From assembly GCA_944383265.1 (NCBI GenBank), contig CALWOX010000007.1, positions 62,001-126,000 of the forward strand: 64,000 nucleotides of DNA. Reading direction: 5' to 3'. The stretch is from an uncultured Lachnospiraceae bacterium. GTDB lineage: Bacteria > Bacillota > Clostridia > Lachnospirales > Lachnospiraceae. Of this stretch, positions 48,948 through 59,546 are shown piece by piece (position 1 is the first letter of the stretch; each line of letters opens with the position of its first letter). Under the pieces are notes generated by a model that was given only the letters and a program-made list of their open reading frames with translations, had not been told where the DNA came from and made no database searches. The position numbers and the translations under genes were made by a program.

Positions 48948-50372
48948 ATGACGCTAAAAAATGAAATATTTAAGGTAAAAATCACTGATATGAGCGATGA
49001 GGGAGCGGGTATAGGAAAAACAGAGGACGGATTTACCTGGTTTATAAAAAACACAGTTATCGGAGATACTGTAGAAGCCTTGGCTATGAAAGTAAAGAAA
49101 AATTACGGCTTCGGAAGACTTGTAAAAATAATTGAGCCCTCTCCTGAAAGGGTGGAGCCCTTCTGCAGGATCGCGGGAAGATGCGGGGGATGCCAGCTTC
49201 AGGCCATGAGCTATGAAGCACAGTTTGCCTTCAAAAAAAGAAAGGTATTGAATAATCTTTCCAGAATAGGAGGCTTTGACATCCCTGAGGAGGAGCTTGA
49301 GATATTACCTGCGGATAAGGATAAGCTGTTACGTTACAGAAATAAGGCTCAGTTTCCCATAGGGAGGAATAAGGAGGGACAGGTCACAGCAGGATTTTAT
49401 GCGGGAAGGACTCACAGCATAATTTCCTGCGATGACTGTCTGCTGGGGGTGCCTGAGAACAAGTGTATACTGGAATATGTGCTCTCTTGGATGAAAAGAT
49501 ATAAGATCGAGCCATATGACGAGGCGACAGGCAAGGGTGTTATGCGACATCTTCTTATAAGGAAGGGCTTTAATACAGGCGAGATCATGGTATGCCCCGT
49601 GATTAATTCCAAGAAGCTTCCATGCGAAAAGGAATTTGTGGACGGACTTTTAAAGCTTTCTATGCCTGAAGGAGCACACATTGCATGTGTGTCCTATTCC
49701 TCCAACATGGAAAATACAAATGTGATAATGGGAAAGGAAGCGGTAAATATTTTCGGAAGGCCTTATATTGAAGATGTTATCAGAAGAGAGGGCACAAATG
49801 AAAATATCAGATTCAGGATATCGCCGCTATCCTTTTATCAGGTAAATCCTGCACAGATGGAAAAGCTTTACTCAAGAGCTCTTGACTATGCGGGCCTTAC
49901 AGGAAAGGAAACGGTTTGGGATCTGTACTGCGGAACAGGCACTATCTCTCTCTTCCTTGCCAGAAACGCAAAGAAGGCCTACGGTGTTGAGATAATACCG
50001 CAGGCAATAGAAAACGCTCGGGAAAATGCTCGGATAAACGGAATAGAAAATGCTGAATTTTTTGTGGGAAAGGCGGAGGAGGTACTGCCCGAATGGTATG
50101 AAAAGAACCGGGATTCAGAGGGGGCTCATCCTGATGTGATAGTAGTGGACCCTCCCAGAAAGGGCTGTGATGAGCAGTGCCTTGAGACTATAGTGAGGAT
50201 GTCCCCCGAAAGAGTGGTATATGTCTCCTGTGATTCTGCGACGCTTGCAAGGGATCTGAGATACCTGTGCGACAGGGGCTATGAGATAAAGAAGGCAACG
50301 GCCTGCGACATGTTCCCGATGACGGTGCATTGTGAATGTGTGGTGAGGTTGGAGCGGAATGGGAAATATTGA
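48948..50372 (+). CDS. 23S rRNA (uracil-5-)-methyltransferase, RumA/RlmCD family
   Basis: 474 residues. The N-terminal TRAM domain (about 5-60, KVKITDMSDEGAGIGKTEDG) is followed by the iron-sulfur cysteines (CRIAGRCGGCQLQ) and the methyltransferase fold (VWDLYCGTGTISLFLARNA; VVDPPRKGCDE). The catalytic Cys is in VVYVSCDSATLARDL. It methylates C5 of U in rRNA (U747/U1939 in other bacteria). A second, TRAM-less relative lies at 52784. The gene has its own region after the yhaM terminator. Confidence 0.93.
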   Translation: MTLKNEIFKVKITDMSDEGAGIGKTEDGFTWFIKNTVIGDTVEALAMKVKKNYGFGRLVKIIEPSPERVEPFCRIAGRCGGCQLQAMSYEAQFAFKKRKVLNNLSRIGGFDIPEEELEILPADKDKLLRYRNKAQFPIGRNKEGQVTAGFYAGRTHSIISCDDCLLGVPENKCILEYVLSWMKRYKIEPYDEATGKGVMRHLLIRKGFNTGEIMVCPVINSKKLPCEKEFVDGLLKLSMPEGAHIACVSYSSNMENTNVIMGKEAVNIFGRPYIEDVIRREGTNENIRFRISPLSFYQVNPAQMEKLYSRALDYAGLTGKETVWDLYCGTGTISLFLARNAKKAYGVEIIPQAIENARENARINGIENAEFFVGKAEEVLPEWYEKNRDSEGAHPDVIVVDPPRKGCDEQCLETIVRMSPERVVYVSCDSATLARDLRYLCDRGYEIKKATACDMFPMTVHCECVVRLERNGKY

Positions 50373-50455: not shown

Positions 50456-51262
50456 ATGCAATCGGTAGAAATAAAAATGTTGCCGCTTTCATTCAGCGAG
50501 TTCCTCTCCTTTCATGATTTTAAGATCAAAGAAACTGAGACCGTTTTGAGAGGTATGCACAGGCAGGCAATTGATAAATATGGTGAACGCTATGAGTTGC
50601 GAGAGGTGTTTGATGCATACATGAGATTTGGCGGGGTGCCGGGCATTGCGGATGTGGGATTGGAACAGGAAAAGGCGATGATTCTGCCGGATGGGATATA
50701 TTCGACTGTTGTGATGCGGGATATTTTGGAAAGGGAAAATCGCAGAGGCCTGAAGCGTATCACAGATCCGATCCTACTGCGTAAGATCATCCTGTTTTTA
50801 GCTGATAATATCGGAAACAGTGTTTCTGTTTCGTCCATTGGAAACACATTGGTAAATGAAGGCCTTTTGGAAGAAGGAAAACGTAAAGGGAGCCCAAGTG
50901 CACATACGGTTCAGGCATATGTAAATGCATTGTCAGAAGCTTATTTCTTCTATGATATCAAACGATTTGATATCAAGGGGAAGGAGTATTTGAGAACGCT
51001 CGGCAAATATTATATCGTAGATATTGGATTGCGAAATTACCTTTTAGGCTTCCGTGACCGTGACAGCGGACACGCCCTGGAAAATGTGGTCTATTTTGAA
51101 CTTCTGCGCCGGGGATATGATGTTGCTATCGGTAAGATAGATAATATGGAGGTAGACTTCATTGCAACAAAAATGGATGATAAGCTATATGTGCAGGTAA
51201 CAGCCTCCACACATTATGGGAATGCATTTAAATCAGAGTGGATAAAATATAGGGGGTACTGA
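50456..51262 (+). pseudogene. Fragment of an AAA ATPase with DUF4143 (N-terminal ATPase domain lost)
   Basis: 268 codons starting SVEIKMLPLSFSEFLSFHDF, which in full-length relatives comes after an N-terminal AAA_14 ATPase of about 130 residues. The DUF4143 body (AYMRFGGVPGIAD, KYYIVDIGLRNYLLG, ENVVYFELLRRGYDVAIG, EVDFIATK) is intact, but the end is cut after VQVTASTHYGNAFKSEWIKY, short of the usual C terminus. The start has no good ribosome site. Codon use differs from all neighbours (more ATC, CGC/CGT, CTG), so it was probably acquired by transfer. It separates two related methyltransferase genes. Confidence 0.75.
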
Positions 51263-51680: not shown

Positions 51681-52772
51681 ATGGAAATAAATCGTGAAAC
51701 TCATGAGAATCATGAGGAAAATAATTCCGAAGTAAAGCACAAAAGACGTCCGAGGTACTCGGGACTTTATCCGAAGAAATTCAGCGAAAAATATAAGGAG
51801 CTGAATCCTGAAAAATACGGAGATACCATAGAGCACATTATTGAAAAGGGCGGTACTCCCGCGGGAATGCATATATCCATAATGGTAAAGGAGATATTGG
51901 AATTTCTTGATATAAAGCCCGGACAGACAGGCCTTGATGCTACCCTCGGATATGGAGGACACACAAAGGCAATGCTTGAATGCCTTAAGGGAGAAGGGCA
52001 TATATACGCCCTTGACATTGACCCTATAGAGTCTGCAAAGACTCGTGAAAGGCTTTTAAAGGAGGGCTACGGGCCTGATATCCTCACCATAAAAAACATG
52101 AATTTTGCCGACATAGATAAGCTTAAGGAAGAGACAGGGGGCTTTGACTTTGTGCTTGCCGACCTCGGAGTATCGTCAATGCAGATAGATAATCCCGAGA
52201 GAGGCTTTACCTTTAAGGACGACGGGCCTCTTGATCTGAGGATGAATCCGCTTGAGGGAAAGAGCGCGGCCGAGAGGCTTTCGGAGATGAGCTATGAGGA
52301 GATCTGCGGCATGTTTGTGGAAAATTCCGATGAACCCTGTGCCGAGGAGATAGCCCGTGTTATAGTAAACAAGAGAAAAAAGGGTGAAAAGACCGACACC
52401 ACAGGGAAATTAAAGGCCGCCATAGAGGAAGCTCTGTCCTTTGTGCCGGAGGAGGACCGCAAGGAAGCTGTGAAGAAATCCTGTCAGAGATGCTTTCAGG
52501 CATTAAGGATAGATGTAAACAATGAATTTGAATCATTGTATGCTTTCCTTGAAAAGCTTCCTATGGTGCTTAAGCCCTCAGGAAGAGTCGCCATACTTAC
52601 TTTTCATTCAGGCGAAGACAGACTTGTAAAAAAGGCCTTTAAGGAGTGCTTCAGGGAGGGACTTTACTCGGAGATAGCAAGGGACGTTATAAGGCCTTCG
52701 GCAGAGGAATGCATAAGAAACAGCAGGGCTCATTCCACAAAAATGAGATGGGCTATAAGAGCAGAGGAGTAA
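51681..52772 (+). CDS. rsmH: RsmH-family 16S rRNA (cytosine1402-N4)-methyltransferase
   Basis: 363 residues. Motifs: GLDATLGYGGHTKAML, ALDIDP, FDFVLADLGVSSMQIDNPERGF, GPLDLRMNP and ILTFHSGEDRLVKKAF. It is about 50 residues longer than usual because of a basic N-terminal extension (residues 1-60). It is not in an mraZ-rsmH-ftsL cell-division cluster, so it may be a second RsmH-type gene with an altered target, or the only one in an unusual place. AGAGAGGAAC precedes ATG 51681. Confidence 0.88.
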   Translation: MEINRETHENHEENNSEVKHKRRPRYSGLYPKKFSEKYKELNPEKYGDTIEHIIEKGGTPAGMHISIMVKEILEFLDIKPGQTGLDATLGYGGHTKAMLECLKGEGHIYALDIDPIESAKTRERLLKEGYGPDILTIKNMNFADIDKLKEETGGFDFVLADLGVSSMQIDNPERGFTFKDDGPLDLRMNPLEGKSAAERLSEMSYEEICGMFVENSDEPCAEEIARVIVNKRKKGEKTDTTGKLKAAIEEALSFVPEEDRKEAVKKSCQRCFQALRIDVNNEFESLYAFLEKLPMVLKPSGRVAILTFHSGEDRLVKKAFKECFREGLYSEIARDVIRPSAEECIRNSRAHSTKMRWAIRAEE

Positions 52773-52783
52773 ACATTCGTAAC

Positions 52784-54052
52784 ATGGAAAAGAAAAATTC
52801 AGATAATAAAAACAAGTACAGAGAAAAAGGCGAAGGACAAAAAAACGAGAGAAAGCATGTTCTTTCAAGTGACGACAGAAATTGTAAAAGCTGCAATATC
52901 GCAAAAAAGTGCGGAGGCTGCAGATATCAGGGAATGAGCTATGAGGAACAGCTGGGGATAAAGCAAAAGGAGATAAAAAAGCTCTTGTCTCCCTTTGGGG
53001 ACCCCGAGAAGATAATAGGTATGTATTATCCTTATCATTACAGAAACAAGGTCCACGCAGTTTTCGGAAGGAAGAAAAACGGAGAGATAATCTCAGGAAT
53101 TTATGAGGCAAACACCCACAGGATAGTGCCTGTTGAGGAGTGTCTTATCGAGGACGAAAAGTCTCAGGAAATAATAAGAAGCATAAGAGATATGCTCAGA
53201 TCCTTTAAGATAAAGACCTACGATGAGGACACAGGCTACGGGCTTTTCAGGCATGTACTTGTAAGAAGAGGCTTTAAGACAGGAGAGATAATGGTGGTGC
53301 TTGTGCTGAGTTCACCTATACTTCCCTCAAAGAATAATTTTGTAAAGGCCCTCTTAAAGGCTCATCCCGAGATAAGCACTGTGATCCTCAATGTAAATGA
53401 TAAAAAGACAAGCATGGTCCTCGGAGACAGAAATATCGTGCTTTACGGAAAGGGCTTCATAAGAGACGAGCTCTGTGGATTGAGCTTCAGGATATCTCCT
53501 GATTCCTTTTATCAGGTAAATCCCATGCAGACAGAGAAACTTTACAATATAGCTATGAGCTTTGCGGGGCTTGACAGCAAGAATGATAAAAATAATGAAA
53601 AAGGCCCGGTGGTGATAGATGCCTACTGTGGCATAGGAACTATAGGTCTTGTAGCTTCGAAGAATGCGGGTGAGGTAATAGGCGTAGAGCTCAATAAGGA
53701 CGCGATCCGTGATGCAAAGATAAATGCACGCGAAAACAAGAGGGAAAACATCAGATTTTATCAGGGTGATGCGGGAGAATTTATGGAAAGTATGGCGGAA
53801 AACGGAGGCCATGCCGATATCGTATTTATGGATCCTCCGAGAGCGGGGAGTGATGAGAGATTCCTCTCTTCTCTGGTAAAGCTTGCGCCTGAGACAGTAG
53901 TCTACATATCCTGCAATCCCGAAACGCAGGCAAGGGATCTTAAGTATCTGAGAAAGAACGGATATGAGGTGAAGAATATTCAGCCTGTGGACATGTTCCC
54001 TTGGACAGAGCATTGTGAGTGCATTGTGAAGCTGACGAAGAAGGCTGTATAG
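52784..54052 (+). CDS. Second RumA/RlmCD-family RNA (uracil-5-)-methyltransferase, without TRAM domain
   Basis: 422 residues. A basic head (1-35) leads into the cysteine cluster (CKSCNIAKKCGGCRYQGM) and the methyltransferase core: VVIDAYCGIGTIGLVASKN, MDPPRAGSDE and the catalytic Cys in VVYISCNPETQARDLKYL. The TRAM domain found in the relative at 48948 is missing. ATG 52784 is the first methionine after the rsmH stop; GAGGAG is 13 bases upstream, rather far. The target may be a different uridine of 23S rRNA or tRNA. Confidence 0.88.
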   Translation: MEKKNSDNKNKYREKGEGQKNERKHVLSSDDRNCKSCNIAKKCGGCRYQGMSYEEQLGIKQKEIKKLLSPFGDPEKIIGMYYPYHYRNKVHAVFGRKKNGEIISGIYEANTHRIVPVEECLIEDEKSQEIIRSIRDMLRSFKIKTYDEDTGYGLFRHVLVRRGFKTGEIMVVLVLSSPILPSKNNFVKALLKAHPEISTVILNVNDKKTSMVLGDRNIVLYGKGFIRDELCGLSFRISPDSFYQVNPMQTEKLYNIAMSFAGLDSKNDKNNEKGPVVIDAYCGIGTIGLVASKNAGEVIGVELNKDAIRDAKINARENKRENIRFYQGDAGEFMESMAENGGHADIVFMDPPRAGSDERFLSSLVKLAPETVVYISCNPETQARDLKYLRKNGYEVKNIQPVDMFPWTEHCECIVKLTKKAV

Positions 54053-54091
54053 TATCCGCTTTATAGTAGTGTAAATCAAAGGAGAGTAAAT

Positions 54092-57000
54092 ATGAAGAAC
54101 CCCTATATATGGACCTGCTTAAAGAAAAGGACCGCAGCATTTTTGGTCTGTGCCCTGGTATTCCAAAATGTCTTCTCTGCCATGGCGGGTACGGAAAATG
54201 CTGTGGAGGCATCGGGGAGAACTGCAGACAGCATGGAATCGGAGAGGGCTTTGGAAAGCGGGAATACAAGCTTTGTCAGCTTTCCGGGACGTTTTTCTGA
54301 TAATATAGCAGAGGGATATGATGACATGTATTACAGCTTTACTCTGGACAGTGAGACGGATATCTCCATATCGGTGGAATCCGATGACAGCAGCTGTCAG
54401 TACGGGGCGGAGCTTTTAGACAGCGGACTTAAAAGCCTTAAGATATCCGAGAGGAAGACGGGACAGCGCATTTCCGGGAGTGACCTTCCTTCAGGTACAT
54501 ACTTCCTCAGAGTATTTCCCCTTTCTGAAAATACATGGGAGCCGTTTTACGTTTCTTTGCAGAAGCTGAAGCTTTCGGCACAGGAGGTATATAATACGGA
54601 TTTTTCCGAGCTGCATATGGTGGCGGCACTTCAGGGGAATGATTCTCCCTACCGCATGAACGGATTGGACCCGAACTACGCTTATGACGAAGACCTTTAT
54701 TATCAGGATGGACTTTATCTTTATCAGTGGTACGAACGGGATACCCCGGAATATGACGGCATGGGAGTAAATAACGGAGGCATATACCCTATGCCCCAGA
54801 GCTACTATGCTTCTTGGCTCGGACCTGTGGCTGAGTATGTATTACCCATGAGCGAAATCAAGCCTTTTACGGGGAATACCTATGAAGACTTTGTGGAATA
54901 TGAGGCTTATTTACAGGATGAAGGAATAGTATATAAAGAGGGGGATACTCTTATCCATGTGCAGAATGCCATGGCCCTTCCTCAAAGATATACCGGTTTT
55001 TATGAGAACGGTGAAGGAATTGAAAATCCCGGCTGGGAGGCTCATATCAAAGCGGGCATCATGAACTACGGCGCATTGACAACAGGTATTTATTGGGGAA
55101 ATCTTGCATGCAAATATGAAGAGAACTATTACTACAGCGGATGGGACTATACCTATGCGGAAGATGAGGACGGCAATCAGGTTCCGGTTCTTGAAAACAT
55201 GCTTAAGGATATGCACTATCAGAATCATGAGGTCGTGGTAGTGGGCTGGGATGATGATTACCCGAGAGAAAATTTTCTTTACGATATAGATAAGGCCACC
55301 GTAGGTATAATACCGGACGAGGAAGTGCCTGAGGCCACAGATTCAGAAGCGGAGAAAGAAAATGTAATACAAGAACTTTCTTCAGAAAAGAAGCGAGCAT
55401 CCGTAAGGACTGCAACTCCGACGCAGGCTGATGAAGCTCAGAATTATGAGGAAGAGGATTGGGAAGAATTTGCCGAATCCCTGCTTCCCGAGCGTGACGG
55501 CGCATGGATAGTCAGAAATTCCTGGGGAAATTATTCAGGAGACGGTGGATATTACTATGTATCCTACTGTGATAAGCAGATCTTCGGAAATGACAATACA
55601 TGGGCATATACCGCCACGGAGACTGCAGGAAATTATAATAAACTATATGAAGTCATGACTCTGCCCTATACGAGAGATGTCACATGGACGACCAATGCAA
55701 ATATGCTTTTGCTATCTACGGTTTTTACAGCGGATGAGGAGGGCGCTGATGTGCTTAAAGCGGTGAATTTTTCGCTTTTAAACAACAATACCCGCTATGA
55801 AATAGCTGTAAACACCGGGGATGATGTCGGAACCAGCCGTAATGAGGAAAATATCTGTGCCGCAGGTTCGAAGCTCTACGCGGGCTATTATACAGTGCGT
55901 CTTGAAAAGCCTGTCATTTTGGAGCCGGGCGAGCCCTTCGAGGTGATTTTAAAGCTTCAGGGAGACGGAAGAGAGATATTGGAGATACCCCTTGTTACAA
56001 ACGACCGGCTGGTGGCGAGTATACCGAGTGAGGAGGGCGTATGCAGATTGTACGATCCTGAGGTCGGATATTGGCTTGATATAGGGGAAGGCTTTACAAA
56101 GGATAATGGCTCTAATAATTACTATGGATATTTTGATATAAAGGCGATGTGCAATGACGCCTCACTTGAAGAAGGCGAGACAGAGCGAGTGACAGCCATT
56201 GAATCGGATCCTGATATATACTATGGATTGAGGGATAACGATAATCAGAAACCGGAACCCGATGAGGAAGCCTCTCCTTCCGTAGCTTCAAAAGGAGCCT
56301 CGGACGAAGGAACCTCAGAAGGCCTTATGATTAAGGACGGACATGTCTTTCAGAGAAGAATAGCGGAAAACCGCATGGAAGCGGCTGAACCGGATGAGCC
56401 CGGCACTGTTTTCCCTGAGGAATTTGACCTGAGGGACGAAGGCATTTTGACACCTGTAAAGGATCAGGAGTACACGAATACCTGCTGGTCTTTCGGCTCT
56501 ACTGCGGCAGTGGAATCAAGCTATCTTATAAACGGAAGCAACCTTTATGATTTCAATTACTCCTCAGGCATCAGCTTGGAGACGGATCTGCCCCTTACAG
56601 AGGAAGGAACAGTACTTTATACCTTTGACAAAAATGATCCTGAAAGCATGGAAAAAGCTTTGTTCTTCCCGAAGCTTCTTGCTTGGGATGACGGGCCTGT
56701 TGAGGATGTGGATGGAAAGCTTCGTTGGGAGCTTTCGGGAGACCTATCCTCAGTGGATACTTCTCGCTTTGAGGATGAAACAGAAGGTACCGGGATTACG
56801 GAAAACGGAGAAGAGGTGCTTTTGTTTACACCTGAGGAAAGCGGGATGCTTACGGTAAAGGTAAGCTCTGCCGATGACCCGACAAAGACGGCATCCTGCA
56901 GAGTACTGCTTTTGGAGGAAAACGCTGTGGACAGTATTTCTGTCTCTCCCGAGACTATGACTCTGAAAGCGGGAGAGTCTGTAAGGCTTGATGTGATCAT

Positions 57001-57631
57001 CGAAGCTTCTGAGGGAAGTGACGCAAAGCCTGTATTTTCTTCGGACAATCCTAATATTGCCATAGTAGATGACAGCGGCCTTGTGCTTGGAGTAAGTCGC
57101 GGAACTACATTGATAAGAGTGCGCGCAGGCGGTTTGGAAGCGGTATGCACTGTGACAGTAAGAAAGCCCGGCACAGGCGGAGGTTCGGACAGGGATATCG
57201 GACGTAATTCAGGCGGCAATGCTTTAAGCGGAAGTTGGATATTTAACGCGGACGGAAGCTGGAGCTTTTCTGCAGACGGAAACAACTATGAAAACTCTTG
57301 GGGATACATTTATAACCCCTACGGAAATGCGGGAGCGGGAGAAGCGGGATGGTTTCGCTTTGACGGGGAAGGAAAGATGTTGACAGGCCTGTTCAGAGAA
57401 ACAGACGGAAGTCTTTACTATTTGAATCCCGTTTCTGACGGAAGTCTGGGAAAGATGCTGACAGGTTGGCAGTGGATACCCGATGAATCAGGAAAGGAAT
57501 ACTGCTGCTATTTCTATCCGAATTCGGGAATGCCTATGGGAGCTATGGCCTCGAATGTTCGGACCACTGACGGGTATGAGGTGGATGCTATGGGGCGTTG
57601 GTGTGTAAACGGAACGCCTCAGACCCGGTAG
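54092..57631 (+). CDS. Large secreted papain-like (C1) protein with permuted catalytic segments, lectin-like and Ig-like domains
   Basis: 1179 residues. A signal peptide (about 1-32) and a PPC-like domain (about 60-160) precede the middle and C-terminal part of a C1 peptidase of the lectin-like-domain family: TDFSELHMVAAL (about 170), His379 in NHEVVVVGWDDDY and Asn476 in GAWIVRNSWGNYSGDGGYYY. A lectin-like domain follows (about 525-690), then an acidic linker. Only then comes the segment that normally starts the enzyme: FDLRDEGILTPVKDQ with Gln792 and Cys798 in NTCWSFGSTAAVESSYL. A Big_2-type Ig domain (about 945-1025) and aromatic/glycine-rich repeats that probably bind the cell wall (1048-1179) end it. 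About 85 residues are inserted between His379 and Asn476. There is no sortase signal. Confidence 0.85.
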   Translation: MKNPYIWTCLKKRTAAFLVCALVFQNVFSAMAGTENAVEASGRTADSMESERALESGNTSFVSFPGRFSDNIAEGYDDMYYSFTLDSETDISISVESDDSSCQYGAELLDSGLKSLKISERKTGQRISGSDLPSGTYFLRVFPLSENTWEPFYVSLQKLKLSAQEVYNTDFSELHMVAALQGNDSPYRMNGLDPNYAYDEDLYYQDGLYLYQWYERDTPEYDGMGVNNGGIYPMPQSYYASWLGPVAEYVLPMSEIKPFTGNTYEDFVEYEAYLQDEGIVYKEGDTLIHVQNAMALPQRYTGFYENGEGIENPGWEAHIKAGIMNYGALTTGIYWGNLACKYEENYYYSGWDYTYAEDEDGNQVPVLENMLKDMHYQNHEVVVVGWDDDYPRENFLYDIDKATVGIIPDEEVPEATDSEAEKENVIQELSSEKKRASVRTATPTQADEAQNYEEEDWEEFAESLLPERDGAWIVRNSWGNYSGDGGYYYVSYCDKQIFGNDNTWAYTATETAGNYNKLYEVMTLPYTRDVTWTTNANMLLLSTVFTADEEGADVLKAVNFSLLNNNTRYEIAVNTGDDVGTSRNEENICAAGSKLYAGYYTVRLEKPVILEPGEPFEVILKLQGDGREILEIPLVTNDRLVASIPSEEGVCRLYDPEVGYWLDIGEGFTKDNGSNNYYGYFDIKAMCNDASLEEGETERVTAIESDPDIYYGLRDNDNQKPEPDEEASPSVASKGASDEGTSEGLMIKDGHVFQRRIAENRMEAAEPDEPGTVFPEEFDLRDEGILTPVKDQEYTNTCWSFGSTAAVESSYLINGSNLYDFNYSSGISLETDLPLTEEGTVLYTFDKNDPESMEKALFFPKLLAWDDGPVEDVDGKLRWELSGDLSSVDTSRFEDETEGTGITENGEEVLLFTPEESGMLTVKVSSADDPTKTASCRVLLLEENAVDSISVSPETMTLKAGESVRLDVIIEASEGSDAKPVFSSDNPNIAIVDDSGLVLGVSRGTTLIRVRAGGLEAVCTVTVRKPGTGGGSDRDIGRNSGGNALSGSWIFNADGSWSFSADGNNYENSWGYIYNPYGNAGAGEAGWFRFDGEGKMLTGLFRETDGSLYYLNPVSDGSLGKMLTGWQWIPDESGKEYCCYFYPNSGMPMGAMASNVRTTDGYEVDAMGRWCVNGTPQTR

Positions 57632-57707: not shown

Positions 57708-59546
57708 ATGAACTTTGCCACCATCGGCAGCGGTAAGATAGTTAAAAACTTTTTGGAGGCTGCGAGAAAGCTTCCTGATTTTTATTATGCCATGGCATAC
57801 TCAAGAAGCATGGAGACAGCCGAGAAGCTGAAAAACGAATATGAAGCGGACTACGCGGTATGCAGTCTTTCGGATATAGCGGATTCGGATAAAGTGGACG
57901 CTGTATATATAGCATCTCCCAACAGCCTGCATTTTTCTCAGGCAAAGAAGATGCTCCTTTCGGGAAAACATGTTCTCTGTGAAAAGCCTGCCTGCACAAA
58001 TGCAAGGCAGCTGAGGATACTTGAGAGGATAGCTGATGAAAACTCCCTTTTGTTTATGGAGGCCTTAAGGCATATATATGACCCTGCGGCTTCAGTGATA
58101 AAGGAAAATCTCACAAAGCTCGGAAGCCTCAGATATGCGGATATACATTACATGCAGTACTCCTCACGATATGACAAACTTAAGGCAGGCATAGTGGAAA
58201 ACGCCTTTAAAAAGGAGCTCTCAAACGGAGCCCTTATGGATATAGGCATATATTGCACAAGCCTTGCAGCCTATCTTTTCGGTGAACCCGAGGATATAAA
58301 GAGCATGAGCCAAAGCCTTTCTACAGGCGCGGACGGCGAGGGCTGCGCTATGCTCTCTTATGAGGACGGACTGCTCCTTCAAATGAGCTGGTCAAAGATA
58401 TGCGATGACCTAAGCCCTTCACGAATAACAGGTGAGGAGGGGACTATGCTCATAGATTCAATAGCAAATCCGAACAAGGTGGAGATAGAATACAGGTCCG
58501 GTGAAAGAGAGCTTATTTATGACAAGGCTCGGGATGCTTTGCCTTGGGAGCAGGAAAGTAATGGGCCTTCGATATCCGGTCAATTTCAAAACAACATGGT
58601 CTATGAGCTCTGCTATTTTATAAAGACTGCAGAAAAACTAAAAAACTGTTCAGATACTGAGCCGCGCCCTAATTATGAGAAAGAACTTGAGGGCGTAAGT
58701 CGTATAAGCATGAAGACAGCCGATGCCATAAGGCGGGAGCAGGATATGATATTCCCTGATGACAGAATAGAGGGGAGAGCATTGCTTGCGACGGATTATG
58801 ACGGAACCTTTCATTTCGGATTTGACAATCCGCCCTGCAGAAAAAATTATGAGAGCATAAAGAGATTCAGAGAAAGCGGAAATATATTTGCATATGCCAG
58901 CGGAAGGTATTGGGACGAATTGCCTGAGAGCCCCGAGACCTATGATTACTATGTCTGCCTTAACGGATCATTGATAAAGGACGGAAAGGGGGAAACAGTA
59001 TTCAGAAGGCCTATAGAGGAAGACACAAGGAAGATACTTGAAAGGCTCAGGGCAAACGGAGCCAAAAATATCAGGGCGTATACAGAGGAAAAGGCATATT
59101 TTGACTACAGCACCAAGGATGATAAGGCAATAAAGGGAGAGTTCCTTAAGACAAGGCATTTTGATGACATAAGAGAGCTTTGCCCTGACACATCTCCTGT
59201 ATATATGCTTTCTGTGTCCGAGAAGGACGTGGAGTCTGCGACCGGGCTTTGTGAAAGACTTAAAAAAGAGAATCTTAACTGTTGTTTTATAAGAAATGAC
59301 GTATTTATCGACATCATGGCGACAGGAGTCGGCAAGGAGTTCGGAGTAAAAAAGGTGGCGGAAATTGAAAATATCCCCGACGAAAATATCTTTACCATGG
59401 GTGACGGAGGAAATGACAAGGGAATGCTGGCTTGCTTTAACGGCTATACAGTAAAAAATGCGGCAAAGGATGTAAAGGCTGTGGCCCTTGGCGTTTTGAA
59501 CGAGGTATATGAGCTTTCGGATCACATAATGAAATTAAATAGTTAA
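57708..59546 (+). CDS. Fusion of a Gfo/Idh/MocA oxidoreductase and a Cof-type HAD phosphatase
   Basis: 612 residues. The first 345 form an NAD(P)-dependent dehydrogenase: FATIGSGKIVKNFLEA, IASPNSLHFSQAKKMLLSGKHVLCEKP. The last 255 form a HAD hydrolase of the Cof/YidA type: motif I LATDYDGT (Asp363, Asp365), motif II YASGR, and motif IV MGDGGNDKGMLACF. No stop or start separates them. Joined in one chain they may act on a sugar or polyol and its phosphate in turn. GTAGGAGG precedes ATG 57708. Confidence 0.88.
   Translation: MNFATIGSGKIVKNFLEAARKLPDFYYAMAYSRSMETAEKLKNEYEADYAVCSLSDIADSDKVDAVYIASPNSLHFSQAKKMLLSGKHVLCEKPACTNARQLRILERIADENSLLFMEALRHIYDPAASVIKENLTKLGSLRYADIHYMQYSSRYDKLKAGIVENAFKKELSNGALMDIGIYCTSLAAYLFGEPEDIKSMSQSLSTGADGEGCAMLSYEDGLLLQMSWSKICDDLSPSRITGEEGTMLIDSIANPNKVEIEYRSGERELIYDKARDALPWEQESNGPSISGQFQNNMVYELCYFIKTAEKLKNCSDTEPRPNYEKELEGVSRISMKTADAIRREQDMIFPDDRIEGRALLATDYDGTFHFGFDNPPCRKNYESIKRFRESGNIFAYASGRYWDELPESPETYDYYVCLNGSLIKDGKGETVFRRPIEEDTRKILERLRANGAKNIRAYTEEKAYFDYSTKDDKAIKGEFLKTRHFDDIRELCPDTSPVYMLSVSEKDVESATGLCERLKKENLNCCFIRNDVFIDIMATGVGKEFGVKKVAEIENIPDENIFTMGDGGNDKGMLACFNGYTVKNAAKDVKAVALGVLNEVYELSDHIMKLNS

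Follow-up and report, generated by a model that had tools for sequence, protein, structure and literature searches.

A probable natural circular permutation in a Cwp84-type C1 cysteine protease of an uncultured Lachnospiraceae bacterium

We analysed a stretch of 64,000 nucleotides (the window) of contig CALWOX010000007.1 from an uncultured Lachnospiraceae bacterium (assembly GCA_944383265.1). An open reading frame (ORF) at positions 54092..57631 encodes a secreted protein of 1179 amino acids that combines a papain-like peptidase domain of family C1 with a lectin-like domain. A Shine-Dalgarno-like site, AAAGGAGAG (54078..54086), is read ahead of the ATG; this site and all features of the gene lie on the forward strand (+). 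The first 32 residues (54092..54187) read as a putative Sec-type signal peptide. A PPC-like beta domain (residues 58-165; 54263..54586) stands just ahead of the new start of the C1 domain. In the structural model of the window protein it matches the pre-peptidase C-terminal (PPC) domain 5sv5 in Foldseek; the Pfam PPC profile is sub-threshold in the window protein (15.5 bits, cut-off 25.9) and above the cut-off in a relative (locus L209). The second part of the C1 domain (residues 168-525; 54593..55666) carries the SE helix and the strands with the catalytic residues His379 (55226..55228) and Asn476 (55517..55519). It is followed by the lectin-like domain (residues 526-690; 55667..56161), recognised by PF18560 at residues 536-628 (48.7 bits, cut-off 27), and by a linker (residues 691-772; 56162..56407) that is acidic by reading. 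The first part of the C1 domain (residues 773-822; 56408..56557), moved C-terminally and called here the Cys segment, contains the oxyanion residue Gln792 (56465..56467) and the nucleophile Cys798 (56483..56485). The domain directly after it (residues 823-944; 56558..56923), about 120 amino acids long, matches no Pfam family at E up to 1, and "Ig-like" is our own label for it. The protein ends with a Big_2 domain (56924..57166; 45.6 bits, cut-off 22.8) and cell-wall-binding-like repeats (57209..57628), which score 24.0 bits with Choline_bind_3, below the cut-off of 27. Choline_bind_3 is above the cut-off in the relatives at L105, L106 and L043.

The described members of family C1 have the linear order Gln-Cys-His-Asn. 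All four catalytic residues are present in the window protein, at the positions named in an earlier sequence-only reading of this DNA. That reading had also put the Cys about 320 residues behind the Asn, where we count 322, and a lectin-like domain between the two pieces, in agreement with the PF18560 match. The Peptidase_C1 profile (PF00112) scores 46.9 bits in the window protein, above its curated cut-off of 20.7, and the best stretch is residues 775-818, aligned to profile positions 2-47. The Cys segment alone scores 37.0 bits; the early piece alone is sub-threshold at 18.0 bits and aligns to profile positions 182-203.

The two pieces were compared by profile-profile alignment (hhalign) with a reference profile of 17 C1-lectin proteins of normal order (418 model columns). 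For the early piece, a profile was built from eight permuted rows cut a few residues ahead of the SE motif; it covers columns 51-368 of the reference (probability 100, E 5e-62). The Cys-piece profile, with 11 permuted rows that comprise the Cys segment and the domain behind it, covers columns 5-49 (probability 99.1, E 1e-18); this alignment ends where the Cys segment ends, though the rows continue. The seam between the two tiled pieces is one column (49/51). The last 50 normal-order columns, which are the end of the lectin-like domain, are unaligned, and the tiling excludes that end. In relatives, the Pfam profile matches both pieces: residues 765-968 at L209 and 515-673 at L203 correspond to C1 positions 45-205 and 65-213, and the late segments at L088 and L210 to positions 1-44 and 1-45. 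The window protein is classed as a permuted variant derived from C1 and not an ordinary member, because the linear order Gln-Cys-His-Asn is absent from it.

The sequence-only reading had suggested a search for the same domain order elsewhere. Eighteen other proteins were found and therefore the swapped arrangement is not due to chance. After records from the same contig had been merged, the 19 distinct permuted proteins, the window's included, represent eight genus codes and four family codes, with four named records that carry no codes. All 19 have the order His-Asn-(lectin)-Gln-Cys, and the order Gln-Cys-His-Asn was not seen in any of them. All 19 retain Gln, Cys and His; as the third catalytic residue 15 have Asn and four have Asp. 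Gln, Cys and His are retained even in rows with as little as 26-28% identity to the window protein. The gap between Asn and Cys varies from 280 to 423 residues, and the linker between the lectin-like domain and the Cys segment, measured by profile ends in 18 proteins, from 61 to 238. A PPC-like profile before the permuted C1 domain and an Ig-like profile after the Cys segment were observed in 18 of the 19 proteins; the profiles were built from ten of these proteins, so that the independent matches are the other eight. The exception is the protein of genome G689, where both neighbours of the permuted module are Big_2 domains.

Near-full-length permuted genes are present in six of 25 genomes of the genus, the window's own among the six; several of the 25 are incomplete. 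The orthologues in the five other species have 64-71% identity. Two further genomes contain remnants, seven match only from residue 945 on, and ten have no match at E 1e-20. In the family, a three-row profile that runs from the Cys segment through the domain behind it matched 150 of 397 genomes at E 1e-4. Among the matches listed, the whole junction is covered in six genomes (seven loci), and the others end within positions 39-113, except one that covers only positions 83-174. Opening 24 loci of the partial matches revealed 23 genes of normal order and one Cys segment alone. In the order, 40 of 392 genomes matched at E 1e-10 and at least two are permuted, the window's own and G689; besides the own locus and a re-used one, 28 loci were opened, 27 of normal order and one permuted. 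In the class, five of 391 genomes matched at E 1e-12, four of them permuted (the window's own, G1104, G880 and G807) and the fifth of normal order. In the phylum, three of 299 matched: the window's own and two of normal order.

A scan of named genomes considered the best 80 of 550 confirmed relatives (79 distinct loci), from which the permuted share is not readable, and yielded 12 intact permuted genes and one broken copy. Permuted genes occur in Candidatus Avilachnospira avicola, Candidatus Copromonas faecavium (two copies), Hungatella hathewayi DSM 13479, Clostridium sp. chh4-2 (two copies) and an uncultured Oribacterium. Four of the genomes with a permuted gene consist of a single contig: G1104, G880, G807 and G046, the last being the complete genome of H. 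hathewayi DSM 13479. A scan of contigs with the single window protein as the query retrieved no relative.

Structures of two permuted proteins were predicted with AlphaFold2. The model of window residues 50-944, based on 13 permuted rows, has a mean predicted local distance difference test score (pLDDT) of 66.1 and a predicted template modelling score (pTM) of 0.64. A helix begins exactly at Cys798 according to DSSP, and the linker blocks have pLDDT of 23-51. The core of the Hungatella homologue (507 amino acids) was folded with 36 rows, 23 of them normal-order rows (of 57 cores available) entered without their Cys segments. This model has a mean pLDDT of 80.4 and pTM of 0.84. The blocks of its Cys segment have pLDDT of 84-95, with a drop to 72 where the helix ends; the Cys opens a helix of 20 residues, and the only longer stretches below 50 are the linker (397-443) and the last five residues. 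We infer that the Cys segment is docked in the Hungatella model, because 55 residues with pLDDT below 50 together with 52 unplaced residues of the Cys segment would hardly allow a pTM above approximately 0.8. In Foldseek searches of the PDB, three chains of Cwp84 were the top matches of both models. The target-normalised template modelling scores are up to 0.68 for the window model and 0.76 for the Hungatella model, and the root-mean-square deviations are 6.8 and 3.4, respectively. PPC domains come next after Cwp84 in the list for the window model.

The permuted genes are constrained at the coding level. The ratios of nonsynonymous to synonymous substitution rates (dN/dS; method NG86) for the whole gene in six chosen pairs are 0.179, 0.089, 0.129, 0.132, 0.169 and 0.123. 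For the 48 codons of the Cys segment the ratio is 0 to 0.123; five pairs have a lower value here than over the whole gene, and one pair has the same. The dS is 1.46-2.29 in five of the six pairs, and thus those values are rough. The pair G217/L098 has low dS (0.226), dN/dS of 0.179 and no amino acid change in the Cys segment.

Quick IQ-TREE reconstructions on the shared core separate the permuted proteins from those of normal order. In the first tree, 15 permuted rows stand apart from 111 normal-order rows with support of 90 in the Shimodaira-Hasegawa-like approximate likelihood ratio test (SH-aLRT). The second, with four more permuted rows and six long-branch normal-order rows left out, sets 19 permuted rows apart from 105 (SH-aLRT 93). 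The permuted proteins probably have one origin, which these trees fit but do not prove. The usual route to a permutation is a tandem duplication followed by the loss of both ends. Such a route is plausible here, since tandem normal-order C1 domains do exist within one ORF: two, with lectin-like domains, in Rubneribacter (L154:7724-11476) and three in Methanobrevibacter (L172:4552-15402). These two loci had been flagged as permuted, and the tandem arrangement explains the flag. No intermediate between the normal and the permuted order was seen among the relatives examined. In G046 a normal-order C1-lectin copy coexists with the permuted one. G228 and G217 each have a second locus with a match to the Cys segment alone.

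Several other candidates were considered and rejected. The donor of the Cys segment might have been a paralogue in the window's own genome, but no second C1 copy was found there at E up to 0.01, and the other ten matches cover only residues 1032-1179. Local DNA repeats that could be the scar of a rearrangement are only short and weak among those listed (20 of 42 direct families and 21 inverted pairs). A short ORF of G173 with a Cys segment and Big_2, a candidate split protein, reads as a normal-order remnant with an SE motif of its own. At L120, Cys and His lie on adjacent ORFs, which read as one gene of normal order that has been split between two frames.

Taken together, the window gene most probably encodes a natural circular permutation of a Cwp84-type surface-attached cysteine protease with C1 and lectin-like domains, whose pieces fold together in one chain. 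The sequence-only reading had proposed such a permutation, in which an entire domain serves as the linker, and the proposal is supported by the recurrence of the order, the constraint, the kept residues and the model of the homologue. The segment with Gln and the helix of the nucleophilic Cys would have left the N-terminus, so as to follow the lectin-like domain via the long acidic linker. The chain would now start in the loop that joined the Cys helix to the SE helix, and the ends created in this way would carry the PPC-like domain on the N side and the Ig-like domain on the C side. After secretion, both pieces may fold into one papain fold within the same chain, the lectin-like domain and the linker bridging the old ends. 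The permutation may have arisen once, for example by a tandem C1-lectin duplication that lost both ends. If the chain leaving the lectin-like domain re-enters as the Cys segment, the permutation could be sterically easy and the propeptide would be turned into a tether. No convincing propeptide-like motif common to the permuted linkers and the normal-order propeptides was noticed in the part of the rows compared by eye. The permuted protease is probably active, as its kept residues suggest, and it likely processes or turns over proteins of the surface or proteins derived from the host. A bolder version is that these are the first recognised permutations inside family C1, active and of one origin, with the propeptide region serving as the tether and with activation cutting the internal linker to produce a two-chain enzyme; this is a tentative proposal and we lean somewhat against it.

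Several observations weigh against a functional circular permutation. The arrangement is rare, with the whole junction in only six of the 397 family genomes among the matches listed, and with no further genome among the 299 of the phylum. The window's own model is the weaker one: the blocks of its Cys segment have pLDDT of 72-87, then 61 and 43 at the end. Foldseek aligns in chain order, and the Cwp84 matches therefore say nothing about the placement of this segment. The clade supports of 90 and 93 are below the tool's mark of 95. Asn is replaced by Asp in four of the 19 proteins. Finally, the copy of G416 (L092) is interrupted by a stop and matches no further than residue 399, and that of G414 (L093) has lost about residues 237-1151, keeping about 1-236 and 1152-1179. 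Since copies have decayed in these two congeners, the permuted gene is dispensable in places. The same copies are what speaks for a decaying relic or an intragenic rearrangement without function, an alternative that the sequence-only reading had kept in view. For the window gene it is very improbable, given dN/dS of 0.09-0.18, the kept catalytic residues, and genes that are intact or nearly so in six of the 25 genus members sampled as well as in further genera and families; relics do exist, as the copies in the two congeners show. An assembly error, also considered in that reading, might be suspected in a draft genome of 12 contigs. However, the permuted order is seen in 19 proteins from several genera and families, single-contig genomes among them, and therefore mis-assembly is ruled out for practical purposes.

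The substitution of Asp for Asn, and the several non-enzymatic surface domains around the permuted C1 domain, would suit a fold that is conserved but catalytically dead and has a binding or scaffolding role within a surface protein. We regard this as unlikely, because Gln, Cys and His are invariant in the permuted proteins even at the lowest identities, and in all six pairs the constraint on the Cys segment equals or exceeds that on the whole gene. Moreover, papain-like families accept Asp as the third residue, according to one study (PMC10318531). In Cwp84 the residue taken as Asn287 lies outside the active site, as reported in PMC4089489, and so the change from Asn to Asp need not kill the enzyme; this may explain why Asp is tolerated here. 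Another possibility is that the active site of one chain is completed by the Cys segment of a second chain, in a domain-swapped dimer or a two-chain complex. The linkers are indeed long and are modelled as disordered. On the other hand, the single-chain Hungatella model is confident and a linker of such length can also close within one chain; we consider a swap between chains improbable. The preferred explanation remains a permuted protease that closes within its own chain.

The permuted module is combined with diverse domains. In L088:5038-9834 (G201) it stands behind metallophosphatase/5'-nucleotidase domains in one ORF of 1598 amino acids, in G1104 and G880 behind chitobiase-C/Fn3-associated repeats, and in G689 behind leucine-rich repeats of the BspA type. 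By reading, the module of L209:2811-7250 (G1104) also follows a region with an HELQH motif that resembles a zinc metallopeptidase, with no Pfam match listed. Motifs of the type A-T-x-S-x-A (ATPSNA, ATDSEA, ASPSVA) were observed by reading to recur in the linkers of the family, in the window at 56162-56407 and 55292-55486. Similar stretches were read in a neighbouring wall protein, L042:13127-16324. They are possible sites of processing or modification.

No shared gene neighbourhood was seen in the genus by reading, except that two species have a gene for a TraX-like membrane protein directly upstream of the permuted one (L089:2529-3422 and L091:5182-5964). In the window, the ORF 57708-59546 reads as a fusion of a Gfo/Idh/MocA-type oxidoreductase with a phosphatase of the HAD type. 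Two RlmD-type rRNA methyltransferase genes (48948-50372 and 52646-54052) flank an rsmH-like gene (51681-52772), also by reading. The partial reading frame 50456-51262 is presumably that of a DUF4143-type ATPase; an intact relative, 26% identical, is located directly upstream of the permuted gene in L042.

The papain fold is among the best-studied enzyme folds. The permuted C1 branch has many relatives of normal order, one of them in the same genome as a permuted copy, which makes both the origin of the permutation and the control of zymogen activation testable. There is also a practical trap, as the C1 profile scores these proteins above its cut-off despite the swapped catalytic order. No report of a permuted C1 enzyme was found in the literature; most subscription papers and all preprints were outside the coverage, and this is weak evidence of absence. 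The available text of a study of early papain-family evolution (PMC10380794) contains no word that starts with "permut".

The closest known system is Cwp84 of Clostridioides difficile (PDB 4ci7, 4d59), which has the same pair of a C1A peptidase and a lectin-like domain. It is the best PDB sequence match of the window protein and the best fold match of both models. A lectin-like domain of PF18560 after the His/Asn part is a feature of the Cwp84 type, and it is found in the window protein as well. The repeats that bind Cwp84 to the wall are of the CWB2 family; in the window protein they are choline-binding-like, with a weak Choline_bind_3 match and no Pfam match to CWB2 at E up to 1. According to PMC4089489, the order in Cwp84 is propeptide - Gln/Cys - His - lectin, with the propeptide at residues 33-91. 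In contrast, the window protein has the Gln/Cys segment after the lectin-like domain, the PPC-like domain leading and the Ig-like domain trailing. The shortest linker of the permuted proteins (61 residues) is near the length of that propeptide. The C1-lectin proteins of normal order (PF00112 and PF18560) from Clostridia, Synergistota and methanogens have the order Cys-His-Asn-lectin and are homologous to both permuted pieces; these are the 111 and 105 rows outside the permuted group in the two trees.

Permutation of the helix is already established in other papain-like families. In C92, C97/PPPDE, LRAT and LupA the Cys helix has moved behind the His-bearing sheet, and papain and the cathepsins (cluster I) retain the canonical structures, as described in PMC10318531. 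The Pfam profiles of C92, C97 and LRAT are not among the six families that match the window protein at E up to 1. The window protein is similar to C92, C97, LRAT and LupA in topology, as His379 precedes Cys798. Unlike them, it is homologous to C1 itself and has a whole lectin-like domain and a linker between the two pieces. By descent it belongs with the C1-lectin branch.

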